Origin: Rhodamnia argentea
Taxonomy: Eukaryota; Streptophyta; Magnoliopsida; Myrtales; Myrtaceae
Reading direction: 5' to 3'
Assembly: GCF_020921035.1 (NCBI RefSeq)
Contig: NC_063150.1
Coordinates: 5,208,001-5,272,000, forward strand
Length of the DNA stretch: 64,000 nucleotides
The notes beneath the pieces are model-generated. The model saw only the letters and a program-made list of their open reading frames with translations. It did not search any database and was not told the DNA's origin. A program made the position numbers and the translations under genes. How positions within the stretch are numbered: the stretch's first letter is position 1; each line of letters opens with the position of its first letter. Positions 15,237 through 63,261 of this stretch are shown here, piece after piece.

Positions 15237-15651
15237 AAAAAAACACCAAAATCCTAAAATATGCTCATTATGACACATATATCCTAAATTTTTTTGTGAC
15301 ACAAAAAATCTCCAAACGTTCACCCATGTGATATATTTACTCTAAACTTGTACCCATTTGACAATTTAACCCAAACTTTTTTTTATGACCCTAAAAATCC
15401 TAAACTCGTACCTATTTGACACATTTACATAAAAAATTAGAGTAAATGTGTCACATGTCTATAAATTTGGGATTTTTAGTGTTACAAAAAAATAATTTGA
15501 GGTGGTACAAGTTTGAGATTTTTGGTATCACAAAAAAATTTAGGTTAAATGTGTTACACGGATAAAAGTTTGAAATTTTTGATGTCATAATAAAAAATTT
15601 GGGATAAATGAATCACAATGAGTATAGTTTATAATTTTTGGTGGTGATTTT
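15237..15651. mobile_element. Foldback element, nested-unit family (copy A)
   Basis: A ~415 bp palindromic region: left end ACACCAAAATCCTAAAATAT with downstream units 'aaactcgtacctatttgacacatttac', and a right half carrying the reverse complement of the same units (landmark GTGTTACACGGATAAAAGTTTG). Each arm is several degenerate ~55-60 bp units. Same architecture as the elements at 31650, 36996 and 61871. No open frame of note; no clear target-site duplication here. Confidence 0.65.
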
Positions 15652-24670: not shown

Positions 24671-25122
24671 TGAATGAGTTGAGCTTTCTGAACCAGCAGG
24701 TTGTTAAGTAAAGCAGTTCTCTAAAAGCACGCTAAGATGCTGCCGCTGTCGAGAAGCTGCAACTTAAGGTGTTGAACAAGCACATTGCAGAAGCTGCGGC
24801 ACCCCCTTAACAGGTAGGCATGACCAAGGCATTGCCTTTCAAAAAAATTTCATTTCCAAGATCTTATATTCACACCAGCAGAACTTCGGAAATAACAGTG
24901 GATGAGTTGAGCTTTCTGAACCAGCAGGTCGTTAATTGGAGCTGTTTTCCAAAAGCATGTTAAGATGCTGCAGCTGTGGAGAAGCTGCAACTTGAGGTGT
25001 TCAACAAGCACCTTGCAGAAGCTGCAGCACCCCTCTAATCGGTAGGCATGACCAAGACATTGCCTATCAAGTCATTTTCGTTTCCAAGATTCATATTCAT
25101 GTCAGCAGAACTTCTGAAATAA
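24671..25122. repeat. Imperfect tandem duplication, ~230 bp unit
   Basis: Two adjacent copies (24671-24893 and 24902-25122) share GATGAGTTGAGCTTTCTGAACC, GAGAAGCTGCAACTT, GCAGAAGCTGC and GGTAGGCATGACCAAG in the same order, ~85% identical by eye. No coding function recognised in either. It lies just downstream (in gene sense) of the VPS45 pseudogene. Confidence 0.8.
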
Positions 25123-25271
25123 CAAGCCTTGGAAGCAAACGCAACTCTTGTCCATGAAAAATTCCACGTGTCAACCTCTATTACAAAGGTCCAGACATGA
25201 AGTTAAGCTAGTTTCCCTAGATTGTAAGCATTAGTAAACGAGCATATGTCATTTATATCAAATATAAAGAA

Positions 25272-31184: not shown

Positions 31185-32499
31185 TTGACTCGGGAGATCT
31201 AATGCATCGTCAATGAGACCGCAGATTCGCAGTGTCCGAGACTGAAACTCGCGCCTTAGCGGGAAATTGGCCGCGGTTTACTTCTCTCCAAATGCACGTC
31301 AAACCGGGATTTGGCAGTTGCTTCTGTAATGGGCTGTCCTTCACTGGCACTTGCTCGCGAATATGGGGGGCCAAACTCTAAACGACGTAGTTTTCTAGTA
31401 CGCATGGACTGCTATATTAGAAATGAATAAAAAAGTCACCTCAACATTTTTTTTTCCCAAATTTCGACCAAAAAAAAAAAAAGCATTTTTTCTAATTGAA
31501 CAGATTTGATGGAGGGATTTGATTGAGGGATTTGATTGCACAAGTTTGACAAATTTTAGAGTTCAATTGCACTTTTATGACAAATTTTAGGATTTCTTGA
31601 GCACTTAACCCTATATAGCTCTATATGTTAGTATTTGCATATTATAAAAGGGTTAATATCATGAAAAACTCCAAACTTGTACACTTATGATAAATTTACT
31701 CTCCGTTAATTTTCGTTAAATTTCACCATCGAACTGTTGAGTAAAATGAGATGTGACAATTGACGAATGTACCGGTTTGGCATTTTTAGCCTATGTTAAT
31801 CACAAATGTATTGGTTTGGTATTTTTACCCTTTGTGTATCACGGGTATACCGGTTTATAATCTCCGTGGTATTAACCCAATTTAAAAGAAACTAACGGAG
31901 GGTAAATTTGTTAAATGTATCGATTAGAGACTTTTGGTGACAAAAAATTAATTAGCGTATTAGTTTGGGATTTTTGGTGAAAATTTGTCATAGGTATTTT
32001 AGTTTGTAGTTTTTTGTGGTATTAACCCAAGCAAACATTATGGAATTTGTGATGTTTGATTTAATTTATTTTCATCCATTTATTTTTGTAAGCTTAATAG
32101 AGATTATTTTTCGAAAAATATTTTTCAAATTGCTAATTTTTCACCAAACAAACGCACCCTAAAAAGTTCAATTCTATTGCCATCGGTAATTCTCAAGTTC
32201 ATTGTCCAAGGGATAAAACATGATAGGTATCACCACAATACAACTAATTTCTCATTCTAACGCACCAAAAGAATGATGTAATTTCCTGCTGCTTATTGAG
32301 TAAAACACGAATAGAAACCAACTTCAAGGCCAGAACAGGAGGTAACAAATCCATTGTCATCTCCCTAATCTACAAATTTAAGAATGGACTACTGTCTATG
32401 ACTGTGAGCTTGCCGCCGGAGCAACAGTTCTTATTCAGCTCACACCATCTAACCATGATCCGCTAGTTCCGGCGAGAAAGGCAGGGAAACAGCTCGGAA
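31185..32499. other. Intergenic region between the PPR gene and FAO
   Basis: Contains the PPR promoter side (31185-31400), a foldback element (31650-32028, listed separately) and the presumed FAO 3' UTR before 32500. Sequence at 31555-31600 (ATTTTAGAGTTCAATTGCAC) resembles units in the arms of the 9983 element. No gene seen. Confidence 0.5.
31650..32028. mobile_element. Foldback element, nested-unit family (copy B)
   Basis: Begins GGGTTAATATCATGAAAAAC and ends GTGGTATTAACCC, an inverted pair. The left arm includes ACTTGTACACTTATGATAAA and CTCCGTTAATTTTCG; the right arm holds the reverse complement (AACTAACGGAGGGTAAATTT, TGTCATAGGTATTTTAGTTT). Length 379 bp. Internal units of ~55-60 bp carry 'tgtaccggtttggcatttttagcc' variants. 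Same termini as the element at 61871. Confidence 0.75.
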
Positions 32500-36067: not shown

Positions 36068-36995
36068 TGTTTTGACTCGTGTGAAAACCCAGGAGAGCGC
36101 CTGTCCGAGCGACGCTTCCTCGTGAGAAAGATGCCGGACGGCTCTCCCAGATAGAAGACGCGAAACAGCCGGAGCGAGAGAGAGAGAGAGAGAGAGAGAG
36201 TTCTGCAGCAGTGTGCAGGTTTGTTCTGCCACGAGATGCGACCAAACAGAAATCGTTAGTGTAGAATCTCTTACGAGTGCCCGGACGACTGGCGGAAGCC
36301 GGCCCGTAATTCGTAAATAAACATGTTTTGATACGACTCGTGCCGCGTCTCCCCTCGATTCCCAGACGGAATCTCCTCCTTAGTTCGTCCACGACGTCTC
36401 TTTTCAAAACGACGGAGCTCCGCGTCATCCAAGAAAATGCCTTAATCCCATCCCCAATAACAACAGCTAAATCTCATTATCGTGACTGGCGCCGTCCCCG
36501 CCGCATCTTTCTCACAATCGTTTCCCAAAAACCTTATCTTTGCCGAAAAAATAATTACGGATTACGTTTAATTAAGCCCAAAAATCCGGACCCTCTCGGG
36601 TCGCTGTCGATCCATATACATATATTGTCATTCCCGCAACATCAAAAAGAACAATTGGGTCGGTTTCAAGAATCGTGGACACCACGGAAGGACACCATTA
36701 AAGGGAGGAAATTGTTGGATTTGAAATGAGCGTATTATTTCTTGCTGCATCAGATCTGTCTCTCTCTTTTTTTTTTTTTTCTGGGGAAGATCGGCGAGAA
36801 TCGTCATTAATGGTTGCTCGAATTTTCCGGAAGAAAGCGAAAGATTTTCCGGTTGAGCAATCCGCTCGTCCTCTCCGTTATCGGAAAGCTCCCCCCCGAA
36901 AATCATCCTTCACCTGTTGCCGAATTTCGGCAAAGATTGGAAAACTTGACTTGAGTCGTGGTTGCTCTATCTCCATCTGGTTAAAAAAAAAAAGA

Positions 36996-37406
36996 GTAAA
37001 TACCATAAATAAAAAAATCTCAAATTGATATATTCGGGGCAAATTTATTAGATTCCAAATCGGCATACTTGTAAAAAATTCAACATCCGTTAGTTTCCGT
37101 TAAATTTTACCGTTAAATTCCTGGGTTGGTTGGCATGTGATGGTTCACGGGGTGTATCAATTTGGGATTTTTATCCTCCGTTTATAGCGTGTGTATTCCG
37201 TGCTATTAACCCAATTTAATGAAAATTAATGGAGAATAAATTTATCGCGGGTGTATCCGTTTAGGATTTTTAGTGGTTAAAAACTTAGTTTGGGATAAAT
37301 TTATCGTAGGTGTACTAGTTTGGAGTTTTTGGTGGTAAAAAAATTAGTTTTAGGTTAAATTTGTCGCAAGTGTGTATTAATTTTGGATTTTTCATGGTAT
37401 TAATCT
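36996..37406. mobile_element. Foldback element, nested-unit family (copy C)
   Basis: Left end AGTAAATACCATAAATAAAA, right end TTTTTCATGGTATTAATCT in inverted orientation. Arms contain CAAATTGATATATTCGGGGC and CGTTAGTTTCCGTTAAATTT on the left, and TTAATGGAGAATAAATTTAT and GTAGGTGTACTAGTTTGGAG on the right. About 410 bp. More diverged than copies B and D. Confidence 0.65.
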
Positions 37407-38115: not shown

Positions 38116-38782
38116 ATTTCTTCCCTCCCAACTCTTCATAGCAAACTGAGATTATGAACAATCTAACACACTCAATAAGATGAAAATTCAAAATCGTGTA
38201 AACAAAACTTTTCACGAATTCCTTGTTTCTGCAAAAAAAAAAAAAAAAAAAAAAAAAGAATGTTGGAAAGCCCATGTCTCCAAGTTAATGACCTTATTGC
38301 TCTTATGTCCACTCGAGATCCATCTTCTCAAAGGACATCCACTCTGGTTCCGCTCTCTTTTCCACCGTCCGATCCACCGGTAAACTGATCTAGCATCCCG
38401 ATATTTATTGACAATTACCACCTATTACATTAAATGACATGGAAAAGTCACAAAAAAAGAAAAGAAAAAAAAACCTCAGACTATAGCAATTTCGAGATAT
38501 TTACCCTAACCTTTCTTTTTGCGATATAAAAAATTCCAAACTTTTACTTGTGGTGCACAATCACCACAACGGAAGGCAAACGATGCTGCATGGCCCCCAT
38601 ATGGCTCAAGTGAAATAAGAACGACGGCGTTTTGATTGAGAAATCGAGACTATGACGGAATATAAATGTGTCATGTAGATACAAATTTAACATTTTTGAG
38701 ATCACAAGAAAAGAGTTTGCGGTAAACGAGATCGGTGGATTTGAGCATTTTGGTGGATATTTCCCTCAAATTATTAATGCAA

Positions 38783-42342: not shown

Positions 42343-43600
42343 CGACATTCACTCTGGTTCCCCTTTCTTTTCCACTGTCCGATCCACCGGCAAACTGATC
42401 AAGTATCCCAATATCCATTGAAGATTACCACCTATTATACTAAATTATGGGAAAGAGCCACACCCAAAAAAAAAAAAAAACCCCTCAAATGATACCCATT
42501 TCGAGACATTTGCCCTAAAATTTCTACCAATAATTTCAAAATTCTACTCGTGTCACACATTTACCTTTGAGTTCCCTCAATTAACAACATTAAAAATCTT
42601 TCTACATGGACGACGAAAAGAAAATGCCGTTGACATAGCCCATGTGACATAAGTGAGACAAGACAAATATGTCACATAAATACAAATTTAGAAATTTTGA
42701 GGTTACAAGAAAAAGTTTATGGTAAACATGTCCAGTGGATTTGAACATTTTGGTGGCTATTTCCCCTAAATTATTAATGCAAGTTTCACCTCCTTATTGA
42801 ATGTAATGCGTGTACATCATTTATTGTTCATAAATAATATTTTTTGACACGAGTAATTAAAAAAGTTTGTAAAAGACATAAATTAATTTTCCGATCAACG
42901 CTGGTCAACCCCTAGCAGGCTAGCAGCAAAAGGAACGCACCATCCGAAGCGTCGACAAATACTTCTAGTGAAATTTCCATTATCCTGCATCGTGGCCGTT
43001 TAATTACTGTCAAATACATGTTAATCCCCCAAATTGTTTCTAACAACGACGTCTTAGACATCGATGGCCTCTCCTCGCGGCGGACTGCCACGGCACCGGT
43101 TGAATTTGGCACACGGACGGGTGTAATTATGCACCGGTTTCGGGTTCTGGCAATCGGGCGGAGGACGGGGTCTTTGGAACGGGTCAAGTACTCCTATCGC
43201 GATCGAACTGGGCCGGCCCGACGTGGCGGAGTTCTTCCCCGACACCTGGGCTCGCCGCTGGCCTGAGGCTAGGGCCCTCCACTGCTGCGCGGCAGACAGC
43301 TGCCAAGCGCCAAGAAGAGGAGGCACAGCTTCATGATCTCTCTTTTAGTATTCCTCCGTCTTATGTTTTCAGGAGAGACCGTGGAGAAGTTTGGTGAACG
43401 ATTTTGAGGGTTCTTCTTGTGATCGTTTTTATGGCAATGGTGAAACGTAATTTAACCTTAGTCCAGCAATTATGTGGCGATGCAAAATTCAGTTACCTAA
43501 ATTTACGAGCGCACTATAGTTTCAGATAATTAAATCAATAAATGATTCATTGAGCTCTTGCTGAATTAAGTGTACAATTGATGTTGCTATTGGTCTTTTT
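42343..43600. repeat. Segmental duplication, copy 2 (contains RALF pseudogene)
   Basis: Collinear with 38333-40515 but without the CACTA-like insertion: ATTATTAATGCAAGTTTCACC (42769-42789) is the uninterrupted site. Begins ACATTCACTCTGGTTCC directly at the end of the Copia pol remnant and fades at TTGATGTTGCTATTGGTCTTT. Confidence 0.9.
43054..43334 (-). pseudogene. Decayed RALF-like gene copy
   Basis: Duplicate of the gene at 40002-40280. The start MKLCLLFLALG is present (ATG at 43334), but an 8 bp shortage in the signal-peptide region shifts the frame and leads to TAG after ~21 codons. The downstream mature frame is still readable (PPPDCQNPKPVHNYTRPCAKFNRCRG-type), but its first cysteine is lost (DRC to DPF), three residues are deleted after CQNPK, and the original TGA is CGA so the frame runs on eight codons to TAA. 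The TATA box is also changed. No ATG opens the mature frame. Each lesion alone would likely disable it. Confidence 0.85.
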
Positions 43601-60439: not shown

Positions 60440-61870
60440 GATGTGGGGGATGTTTGGGTTTTGGGAGGTGGGAGATGGTTCAGGTCTAGGTGTTGTTAAC
60501 AAGATTGATGACTATACTTATAGCTGCACAGCGTCTTCCGGTGAAGGGTTCCTTCTCATTTTCCAAACAATTCATTTCGGTAAGGATTCGAGTGATTGGT
60601 CTATGAAGGGAGCTCGGATCTCTCTTTAGCAGAGTAGCTTTTAGTAAATGAGCTTCCTTTCGGCTTTTAATACAAAACCACTCTTCCCTATCTTGGAGAG
60701 AAAAAACAAAGCAGCAACAAGAACATGAGTTTCGTGAAGCACAAAGTTCTGCTTACAAGAAATTTTTGGTTGATTCATGAGTTTACGCAAGCCCATTGGG
60801 TAAGCATTCATAAATGAATTTCTGTTCCACGTGATTCTAAACTTAAAGCATGTCCTTCTTAAACAAATCTAAGTCATATAGGGTTTACGAACGATATCCA
60901 CACGAAATTTAGCTCGAACACTGCGGTGCAAATACTGCTTTTCGATAATTTACGTACTTAAGTTTACGTGCCGATTATGAGTGTTTTATAAAGAAGAGAA
61001 GAATGGAGTGATTGCATAAGAAATAGGAAGCAACTTCGGTTGAATGTCAAATGTAATTAGTTACATATTCGTTAATGATGGAAATTTGATACATTCCTTC
61101 CGTATTTTATAATTGAAAGTTTGCTTTTATATTAACATACGCAGTTTATATGATAATGGAAAATGTCTTCTCGAGAACGTAATTTTACCTTTTTGATGCC
61201 CTTGGAAGAGCCTGCAGAGATAACAATGAGAAATGTGTTTGACTATCCTTTGGTTTGTGAAAATTCATTTGAAAAACGAAAACAGCACAAGGACTGTGCC
61301 CAGCAACGCCTTCAAAATTATGACTATAAATTTGATGAACGTTCTCATTAAAAAGTTATGTATGGCGCTCACTCTGATGCTAAAAGTTAAATGTCAAATC
61401 GGAAAAAAAACGATCACTTAAGTGCCTTCGACGAGATATTCCAGTCAAAATTAATCTGGGGGAGGCCGCGGTGGCCCTAGGCGAGGGTCGCCGGAGCCCC
61501 TTGCCGGCCAAAGCTCTAGTTGCAAAAAAAGAAAGAAAAAACATTTAAAAAAAATTTTTTTAAAATAAATATAATTAAAAGTTATCGACGTCAACGTCAG
61601 TCGTCCTATATGGTGCTACCGGCGTCCAACTTAGCGATTTATAATTAACAACATGAGGACGAGGTACACCATCGAGCTCCATTTGGTTGGTGTCCGGCCA
61701 AAGAAGACATCAACAACATTACAAATTTCAAAATTTTATTATATTTCACCTAGCGAAACCCAACATAGAAAATGGATGATGATGATGATTCATGATCCGA
61801 CGTTGACTCAGCCCTCACGAAGTCAACCTTTGAGCTAAGCCAATTTAATCAACAAGCTTTAATTTAAATA
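60440..61870. other. Receptor-kinase promoter side and intergenic DNA
   Basis: 60440-61310 is partly duplicated upstream of the LRR pseudogene (CTTCCCTATCTTG..., TGTGCCCAGCAACGCC). 61460-61520 is a GC-rich patch containing GGCGAGGGTCGCCGG (61480-61494), a motif also found at 10613-10627. No gene. Confidence 0.5.
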
Positions 61871-62416
61871 GGGTTAATATTATGAAAAATCCCAAATTGA
61901 TATATCTATGACAAATTTACCTCAAATTATTTTTTTAACCACGAAAAGCCTCAAACTGGTACACCCGTAATAAATTCACCCCAAACTATTTTTTTGACCA
62001 CCAAAAATCCTAAATTGGTACATCTGTGATAAATTTGCCTTCGACTAATTTTTTTGACTATGAAAAACCTCAAACCGATACATTTGTAATAAATTTATCC
62101 TCCGTTAAATTGGTTTAATACCACAAAAAATCTCTAATTGATAGACCTGCGATAAACATAGGGTAAAAATCCCAAATCGATATATCCGTGAACCGTCACG
62201 TACCATCCAACTCAATAATTTAACAGTTTTTTTTTGTCAAAATAATTTGATAGTTAGATTTAACGAAATCTAATAGAGGGTAGATTTCTCATAAGTATAC
62301 CGATTTTGAGATAAATTTGTCACAAGTATACCAGTTTGAATTTTTTTTATCAAAAACTAATTTGAGATAAATTTATCATATGTATACCGATTTGAGATTT
62401 TTCATAATATTAACCC
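61871..62416. mobile_element. Foldback Mutator-like element with 9-bp target-site duplication (copy D)
   Basis: Begins GGGTTAATATTATGAAAAAT and ends ATTTTTCATAATATTAACCC, a near-perfect terminal inverted repeat. It is flanked by identical 9 bp ATTTAAATA at 61862-61870 and 62417-62425. The left half has four tandem ~58-60 bp units, each with 'caaa[c/t]tg[g/a]tacaccc[g/t]taataaatt' and 'ttttttgaccac' variants; the right half carries the same units inverted. 546 bp, no coding sequence. A 9 bp duplication is typical of the Mutator superfamily (established knowledge), so the family is best seen as a Mutator-derived MITE. Confidence 0.85.
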
Positions 62417-62715
62417 ATTTAAATAGCAAAACGCAAAGTCGTTTCCGTTTACTTTGCCTTCCAATCTTCCCTCTTCCAAGAAGTTGCGTTCACAACAACT
62501 GCTCCCGAAACTCCAATACACGCAAATCAATCCCGACAACGCCAACTCCTCCTTTTTCTTTTGAAAAAAAAATAATATTTATAGTCATGACATGGCTAAC
62601 AAGTCCTAGGTTTTCTCTTCAACGGCATTAACTTACACAACCTTAAACCTTAAACCTCACGAACTCAGACGACATCACCGCCTTCATCTCGTCTTCATTT
62701 TCTCCCGGGAGAAAC

Positions 62716-63261
62716 ATGTCATCCTTCAACTCTTTCCCTTCATCCACCCTCTTCTTCCTCTTCCTCCTCTTCACCGCCGCCGTCGTCCTCTCCATCTTCC
62801 ACTGTGAGGACTACTCCGAGGCCACCCTCTCCTTCCTCAACCTCGCCGCCTCCACCTCCTACCTGATCGTCCGAGCTGTCTTCGCGGGCACCGCCTACTT
62901 CCTCGCGTTCGTGATCAACGGGCTGCGCGTCCCAAGCGAGGCCCTCCTCTCGGGGCTCCGGCAGCTCGCGGAGGCCATCCTGTCGGTGGCGAGTTACGTA
63001 GGGGCGGCTGCCGTGGACGCCGCGAGCTCGCTGGTGTCGGCCGCTTTGGAGCTGGTGAAGGAAGCCGCGGGGAAATTCGTCGAGCTCGCGACGGAAGGAG
63101 CGGCCGCTTTAGCCGAGCAAGGTAAGGAAGGGATCGAGGGCCTGTGCAAGTTCGTGGCGGAGGCGGCACGGATCATGTTGGAGGTGGTGGCCGGCGTGGT
63201 GGCGGAGTTATGGAACAGCTGCAAGGAAGCGGTCAAGTACGTCATGGAGAAAGGGAAATGA
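62716..63261 (+). CDS. Unrecognised small membrane/amphipathic protein
   Basis: Intronless, 181 residues, start MSSFNSFPSSTLFFLFLLFT. The first ATG in the frame sits after a purine-pyrimidine leader (62640-62715) without upstream ATG in frame. Two hydrophobic segments: ~11-30 (signal anchor or signal peptide) and ~45-70 (TSYLIVRAVFAGTAYFLAFV). The C-terminal ~110 residues are Ala/Val/Glu/Lys-rich with heptad-like helices (AALELVKEAAGKFVELATEG, AEAARIMLEVVAGVVAELWN), suggesting amphipathic or LEA-like helices lying on a membrane. GC content is far above the flanks, as for other real exons in this window. I do not recognise the family. Function unknown. Confidence 0.7.
   Translation: MSSFNSFPSSTLFFLFLLFTAAVVLSIFHCEDYSEATLSFLNLAASTSYLIVRAVFAGTAYFLAFVINGLRVPSEALLSGLRQLAEAILSVASYVGAAAVDAASSLVSAALELVKEAAGKFVELATEGAAALAEQGKEGIEGLCKFVAEAARIMLEVVAGVVAELWNSCKEAVKYVMEKGK

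Follow-up and report, generated by a model that had tools for sequence, protein, structure and literature searches.

In and around the window, i.e., the whole 64,000-nucleotide stretch analyzed here (C1:5208001-5272000), are found genes for a PPR protein with an E motif, a lectin-domain kinase and RPW8, a gene content that points to a plant host. The subject of this work is a foldback element of 546 bp at positions 61871-62416 (forward strand), which is bracketed by two identical copies of a 9-bp target-site duplication (TSD), ATTTAAATA, at 61862-61870 on the left and 62417-62425 on the right (identified from the window sequence together with the family tally discussed below). A preliminary description had recognized at this site a foldback element with a perfect 9-bp TSD, which is confirmed by ATTTAAATA on both sides and by TSDs of 9 bp across the family.

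Anatomy of the element and its relatives in the window

The left terminus of the element, GGGTTAATATTATG, occupies 61871-61884, and the right end, 62403-62416, is its exact inverse. A search allowing up to two mismatches found three matches to this terminus in the window, compared to 0.73 expected, and three or more were obtained in 3 of 100 shuffles. The terminus alone is therefore weak evidence.

The arms had been described as tandem series of ~58-60-bp units inverted with respect to each other, an architecture that is borne out by TRF (period 59, 3.7 copies, 61884-62102), by the spacing of direct repeats (left: 59, 59, 60, 63 and 39; right: 31 and 56) and by matches to a core sequence of the family. 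The long left arm (61871-62111, forward strand) contains four tandem ~59-bp units with cores starting at 61893, 61952, 62011 and 62071. The arms are unequal in this copy, i.e., the left part carries the four units with a core (4-7 mismatches relative to that of the family) and one degenerate unit (11 mismatches), and the right arm (62278-62416, reverse strand) carries three inverted cores at 62278, 62309 and 62365 (4-8 mismatches) with the terminus at its end. The best core match in 200 simple shuffles had nine mismatches. The outermost parts of the arms pair at 85% across 72 nt, a length that includes seven flank bases on each side.

Next to the left arm, at 62112-62124 (forward strand), lies an internal, degenerate version of the terminus, GGTTTAATACCAC, which is a possible start of an inner element and which is intact in another copy of the family (L036). 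The central region between the arms (62161-62277, forward strand) begins inside the last, degenerate unit and contains an insertion of ~27 bp relative to the family consensus (62214-62240, forward strand; placed by eye in the alignment), which explains most of the extra length of this 546-bp copy, the identity of which to the 521-bp consensus is 82.4%. No open reading frame of at least 110 aa was found inside the element, Rfam at gathering scores gave no matches in the whole window, and no stretch with the core pattern of the family was found in viral contigs.

The preliminary description also predicted that transcripts would fold into long imperfect hairpins, which might feed small-RNA pathways. 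The calculated RNA fold of the element has an energy of −142.8 kcal/mol, compared to a mean of −78.0 kcal/mol for shuffled sequences (z −10.8; none of 100 shuffles was as stable). Because of this z value, a transcript through the element would be expected to form a long imperfect hairpin, so that the claim holds as a predicted fold.

Relatives of the element are found elsewhere in the window. One, at 31650-32028 (reverse strand, an orientation weakly supported at 69% vs 67%), has fewer units and no convincing TSD. Another, at 36994-37406 (reverse strand), harbors an internal terminus ATTGGGTTAATAGCAC and is flanked by AAAAAAAAA and AAAGAAAAA, which agree at 8 of 9 positions by eye. In both, the internal terminus is well kept, i.e., far better preserved than in the 61871-62416 copy. 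Units of ~59 bp also make up a more distant foldback relative at 15246-15645 (strand not assigned), the ends of which are not defined, and weak, partial matches to the family profile are seen at 38663-38756 and 42660-42756. A further repeat, a 228-bp unit present twice with 85% matches, occupies 24674-25124. About 66 bases past the end of the window lies a copy in the opposite orientation (L010, C1:5270001-5278000, at 2066-2585) with its own TSD, TTTGGACAA; this copy and that at 61871-62416 flank an open reading frame that starts near 62719.

A dispersed family with 9-bp target-site duplications

The family was searched for in the genome (346,658,060 bases, 346.7 Mb, in 74 contigs). Among 3184 first-look candidates 40 were scored, including the element at 61871-62416. 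The other 39 are near full-length copies that are 73-78% identical to the element, except for one partial copy (L046, 83%), and the family is spread across 11 large contigs.

To what extent these copies are flanked by duplications was tallied for the 40 scored copies with their own flanks, the ends being set by the termini. An exact 9-bp TSD directly at the ends is found in 24 of the 40, and 30 of the 40 have one with at most one mismatch, compared to 0.19% and 1.16%, respectively, among 1558 left/right pairs of flanks swapped between different copies. Exact duplications of 8 bp are seen in three scored copies, all three being homopolymers, and exact duplications of 10 bp in two. Homopolymers also account for three of the 24 exact 9-bp cases (L021, L025 and L028); upon removal of these three, 21 of 37 are exact. 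The surroundings of L021 (C5:27330991) and L025 (C5:27235553) are 96% identical over 6.5 kb, and these two therefore represent a single insertion that was duplicated together with its surroundings, i.e., one duplicated locus. With L025 dropped (n = 23), the exact TSDs display a base bias, with A at the final position in 19 and T at the initial position in 15.

Among the 16 of 40 copies that do not have an exact 9-bp TSD, six differ by one mismatch and eight by 2-5 mismatches at 9 bp (one of these eight is L046, the end of which was wrongly set by the script), while L031 has an exact 10-bp repeat and L032 a 10-bp repeat with one mismatch. Other intact copies with absent TSDs or with TSDs of another length, an outcome on which the preliminary description had staked its 9-bp claim, are present as a minority only (16 of 40 inexact, including the exact 10-bp repeat of L031). 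Two additional copies, found in the flanks of others and outside of the tally, have TSDs that agree at 8 of 9 positions by eye (L015 at 4866 and L017 at 1554). At another place (L037, 3063-3795) a copy is followed by a second, partial copy that is trailed by the same TSD, TAGATATTG, as if the right end and its flank had been duplicated in tandem.

Seen on its own, the structure at 61871-62416 could be an inverted duplication or a satellite-like array that arose without transposition, where the 9-bp repeat at 61862 and 62417 is a coincidence in A/T-rich DNA: ATTTAAATA is A/T-rich and nearly palindromic, and the tandem units resemble a small satellite. The probability of this explanation is negligible, since exact 9-bp TSDs flank 24 of 40 dispersed copies, compared to 0.19% of swapped flanks, and exact termini recur at a matching distance at 61 or more places. 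The TSD tally refutes it for the family and likewise rules out a chance palindrome or satellite. The element at 61871-62416 is one copy of a real, widely dispersed mobile family, not a chance palindrome.

A consensus of 521 bp was built from 38 copies (L046 and L025 were excluded). The family terminus is GGGTTAATAYCAYG. A 30-bp core, CAAACTGGTACACCTGTGACAAATTTACCC, and its variants are found four times in the forward direction in the left arm (at most three mismatches), with one more at nine mismatches, while the right arm has three inverted cores (at most two mismatches). After the fourth unit follows the inner terminus, which is degenerate in the consensus, GATTTAATATCACGAAAAATC, and the distance from there to the right end is 279 bp. 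The script recognized this inner terminus at the usual offset in 22 of the 40 copies, in all 22 preceded by AAATT, and an intact, exact inner terminus with the right terminus at the expected distance is present in one of the 40 (L036). The exact ends, the target duplication and the consensus anatomy can serve for the annotation of further copies.

Divergence from the consensus ranges from 5 to 21% among the 40 aligned copies, and the mean pairwise identity of the 38 copies is 81.7%, a level as would be expected for an old, decaying family. The substitutions in the 38 copies relative to the consensus comprise 1786 transitions and 553 transversions, and the rates of C-to-T/G-to-A changes are 0.20 in CG, 0.21 in CHG and 0.16 in CHH contexts. 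One control, the duplicated 6.5-kb locus L021/L025 with the element included, displays 121 transitions and 51 transversions. This spectrum would fit earlier methylation of cytosines, whatever their context, without being decisive; because the transition excess is modest, we do not claim small-RNA-guided methylation.

Possible size classes and the internal terminus

Genome-wide pattern searches revealed that the termini recur at preferred distances. A pattern with both termini exact and 500-530 bp apart (reversed-pattern control, 0) gave 64 matches at 507-524 bp, which represent at least 61 distinct places, and 41 of 61 are at 519 or 520 bp. A pattern for termini ~254-284 bp apart gave 29 matches at 21 places (control, 0). 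The third pattern, 32 bases composed of the outer terminus and the start of the first unit, gave 182 matches when one mismatch was allowed (control, 0). Among the 100 matches listed, at least ten inverted pairs are 822-824 bp apart, at least one is at 792 bp and at least two are at 519-520 bp, and of these 100 matches 28 belong to places of the 520-bp class and 22 to pairs at 792-824 bp. The 822-824-bp pairs are a possible third size class (examples are C1:21892784-21893606 and C4:6420224-6421046). Because the 280-, 520- and 823-bp patterns differ, the counts do not identify the most numerous class.

The recurrent spacings of ~280, 520 and 823 bp, together with the degenerate third terminus, suggest, without proving it, a size ladder in which arms are added. 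In this scenario, to which we ascribe a rather low probability, a ~280-bp element would become the asymmetric 520-bp form by addition of one arm, the ~823-bp form would have arms added at both ends, and the three-terminus form would have been amplified to at least 61 exact-ended copies. It is possible that the ~280-bp element gained one further arm to give the ~520-bp form, where the old terminus was left behind as the degenerate internal copy.

The data may also be explained without any ladder, i.e., the ~280-bp matches would be the inner parts of long copies, while the 823-bp spacing would belong to another, related family or to amplification of a 520-bp form carrying an unrelated insert. 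The odds of this explanation we place slightly short of even. The AAATT that adjoins the terminus in long copies is found also at 9 of the 21 ~280-bp places, one of which (C8:9667292) lies within a known 520-bp copy. It is absent at the other 12, which may be free-standing short elements; this number is an upper bound because the context test covered the AYCAC-end side only. An 823-bp form produced by a fifth unit in the arm was considered, and the exact pattern for a five-unit arm gave no matches, a search of low power that accepts exact letters only; this null result, too, is on the side of an explanation without a ladder. On the other hand, AAATT precedes all 22 recognized internal termini, yet is missing at 12 of the 21 ~280-bp places. 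Furthermore, the relatives at 31650 and 36994 preserve the internal terminus far better, and among the matches listed at least ten separate places have a pair of termini 822-824 bp apart. If the ladder were real, elements with two, three and four arms would exist side by side within one genome, and the role of extra terminal repeats in Mutator-type transposition could be addressed in terms of copy number and age.

Probable Mutator affiliation and known systems

The element is, with high probability, a non-autonomous cut-and-paste DNA transposon of the Mutator-like (MULE) superfamily, i.e., a foldback-type MITE. TSDs of ~9 bp, as in the MULE superfamily, are found in exact form at 24 of 40 copies, a number that rises to 30 when one mismatch is allowed. 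The terminal inverted repeats are long (85% pairing over 72 nt) and have defined ends (exact termini at 61 places or more). As in MITEs, the copies are short, non-coding and near-uniform (41 of 61 exact-ended copies at 519-520 bp, with 500-530 bp allowed), and as in Foldback elements, the inverted arms are composed of tandem units.

Both the 9-bp stagger and the modular build of the long inverted arms are indicative of a MULE transposase, and the Mutator label is likely to be correct. Such a transposase, acting in trans, would bind the repeated core CAAACTGGTACACCTGTGACAAATTTACCC and its variants (four forward on the left, three inverted on the right), cut at the GGG/CCC ends and insert the element into A/T-rich targets with a 9-bp stagger. 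The tandem units would thereby serve as multiple binding sites for the transposase and would also make the transcript fold back.

A search of the genome for MULE transposase domains gave 474 first-look candidates, and all of the 150 that were scored were above the cut-off. The domain PF10551 is found also in host genes of the FAR1/FHY3 kind, so that some of these 150 places may not be transposons. At two of the 150 scored places the upstream stretches (2401 bases each) both lacked the family termini, a search that termini farther up or downstream would escape. The Mutator type proposed in the preliminary description is supported in part: the TSD length, the length of the inverted arms and the occurrence of MULE domains in this genome speak for it, and the shared termini were found in neither upstream stretch. 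Within 10 kb of the 150 MULE places are 4 of 106 distinct family places, compared to 0.94 expected (P 0.012); we do not read a partner relationship into this proximity, given that the family places are small elements next to MULEs and that the two may share a preference for certain regions. In one of the two upstream stretches, which belongs to another MULE (L049), a 127-bp unit is repeated 4.4 times at 461-1043, upstream of an open reading frame that leads to the MULE domain, with no match to the family profile, and repeated units near a MULE end are therefore not peculiar to the present family in this genome.

Among the 51 stop-to-stop open reading frames of at least 110 aa in the window, the 10 stretches searched with Pfam gave no transposase. 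Beside the fetched copies (43 open reading frames of at least 170 aa), no MULE family is among the 25 listed of 45 Pfam families, where spliced or broken genes would fall below the cut-offs, and one open reading frame near these copies matched DDE_Tnp_4.

An alternative is that a transposase from outside the MULE superfamily, likewise generating 9-bp duplications, dispersed the copies, in which case the Mutator label would be wrong. The two upstream stretches devoid of family termini agree with this explanation, and the TSD length by itself is no proof, since 9-bp TSDs are not unique to MULEs. We consider it improbable because the 9-bp TSD, the modular long inverted arms and the plant host together best fit MULEs, many MULE domains are present in the genome, and the MuTAnT elements of Medicago truncatula, in the passages cited, have a similar general build and a mudrA-like partner (PMC4486113).

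Tandem units inside inverted arms combined with a 9-bp TSD had been considered unusual for a MITE, a view that is not supported by published families. The combination is not new because it is known in MuTAnT, Tm1, Muta1 and MULEs with tandem TIRs, as far as the cited parts of these reports extend (PMC4486113, PMC3169594, PMC5225508, PMC3310237). The MULE family MuTAnT comprises 218 copies with 9-nt TSDs and a mudrA-like autonomous partner; it was first described at 292 bp, 90% of copies are 200-300 bp, the ends are GGGG/CCCC and the targets are TA microsatellites (PMC4486113). Common to MuTAnT and the present family is a short, modular, hairpin-forming foldback structure with a 9-nt TSD in a plant, but the present family is ~520 bp with ~59-bp units. 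The Tm1 Mutator/Foldback elements of root-knot nematodes have, in the cited text, composite inverted repeats with a variable number of tandem motifs, mostly 9-bp TSDs and a MULE-like transposase on one element (PMC3169594). They share the composite repeats of tandem motifs and the TSD length with the present family and differ in the ~14-bp motif, the animal host and the asymmetric 7-bp end motifs. Muta1 of Aedes aegypti, a MULE of the type 2 Foldback kind, is similarly reported to have subterminal tandem repeats in its TIR and 8-9-bp TSDs, and its derivatives vary in repeat number (PMC5225508). Here, the similarity lies in the TIR with tandem repeats and in the TSD, while the 12-bp repeats, the animal host and the known active autonomous element set Muta1 apart.

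A literature search on pieces of the terminus and core gave no plant-transposon paper by title. The combination of features is known, while the family itself appears to be new. The FARE elements of Arabidopsis are plant foldback elements of the MULE kind and are likened to the present family by class alone. In the cited account, FARE is now classed with MULEs (PMC4486113).

With respect to the internal terminus, the relevant system is that of MULEs with multiple long TIRs (Ferguson and Jiang 2012; PMC3310237), which, in the cited passages, have one extra TIR or extra TIRs at both ends, where the likeness between outer and inner TIRs extends over 100 bp or more. The 520- and 823-bp classes may resemble the one-extra-TIR and both-ends types, respectively, and an additional internal terminal sequence is common to these MULEs and the present family. 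Set beside the likeness of at least 100 bp used there, an internal terminus and a degenerate unit are recognizable in the present family, but this terminus is short and mostly degenerate. A further copy was reported for just one of the 12 distinct elements that carry a single extra TIR, and the asymmetric three-terminus form in tomato is, in that account, nearly always a dead end (PMC3310237). In the present genome, by contrast, the asymmetric 520-bp form was found with exact ends at 61 places or more, and this amplification, compared to the tomato case as given in the cited passages, is the sole point that a specialist might find surprising.
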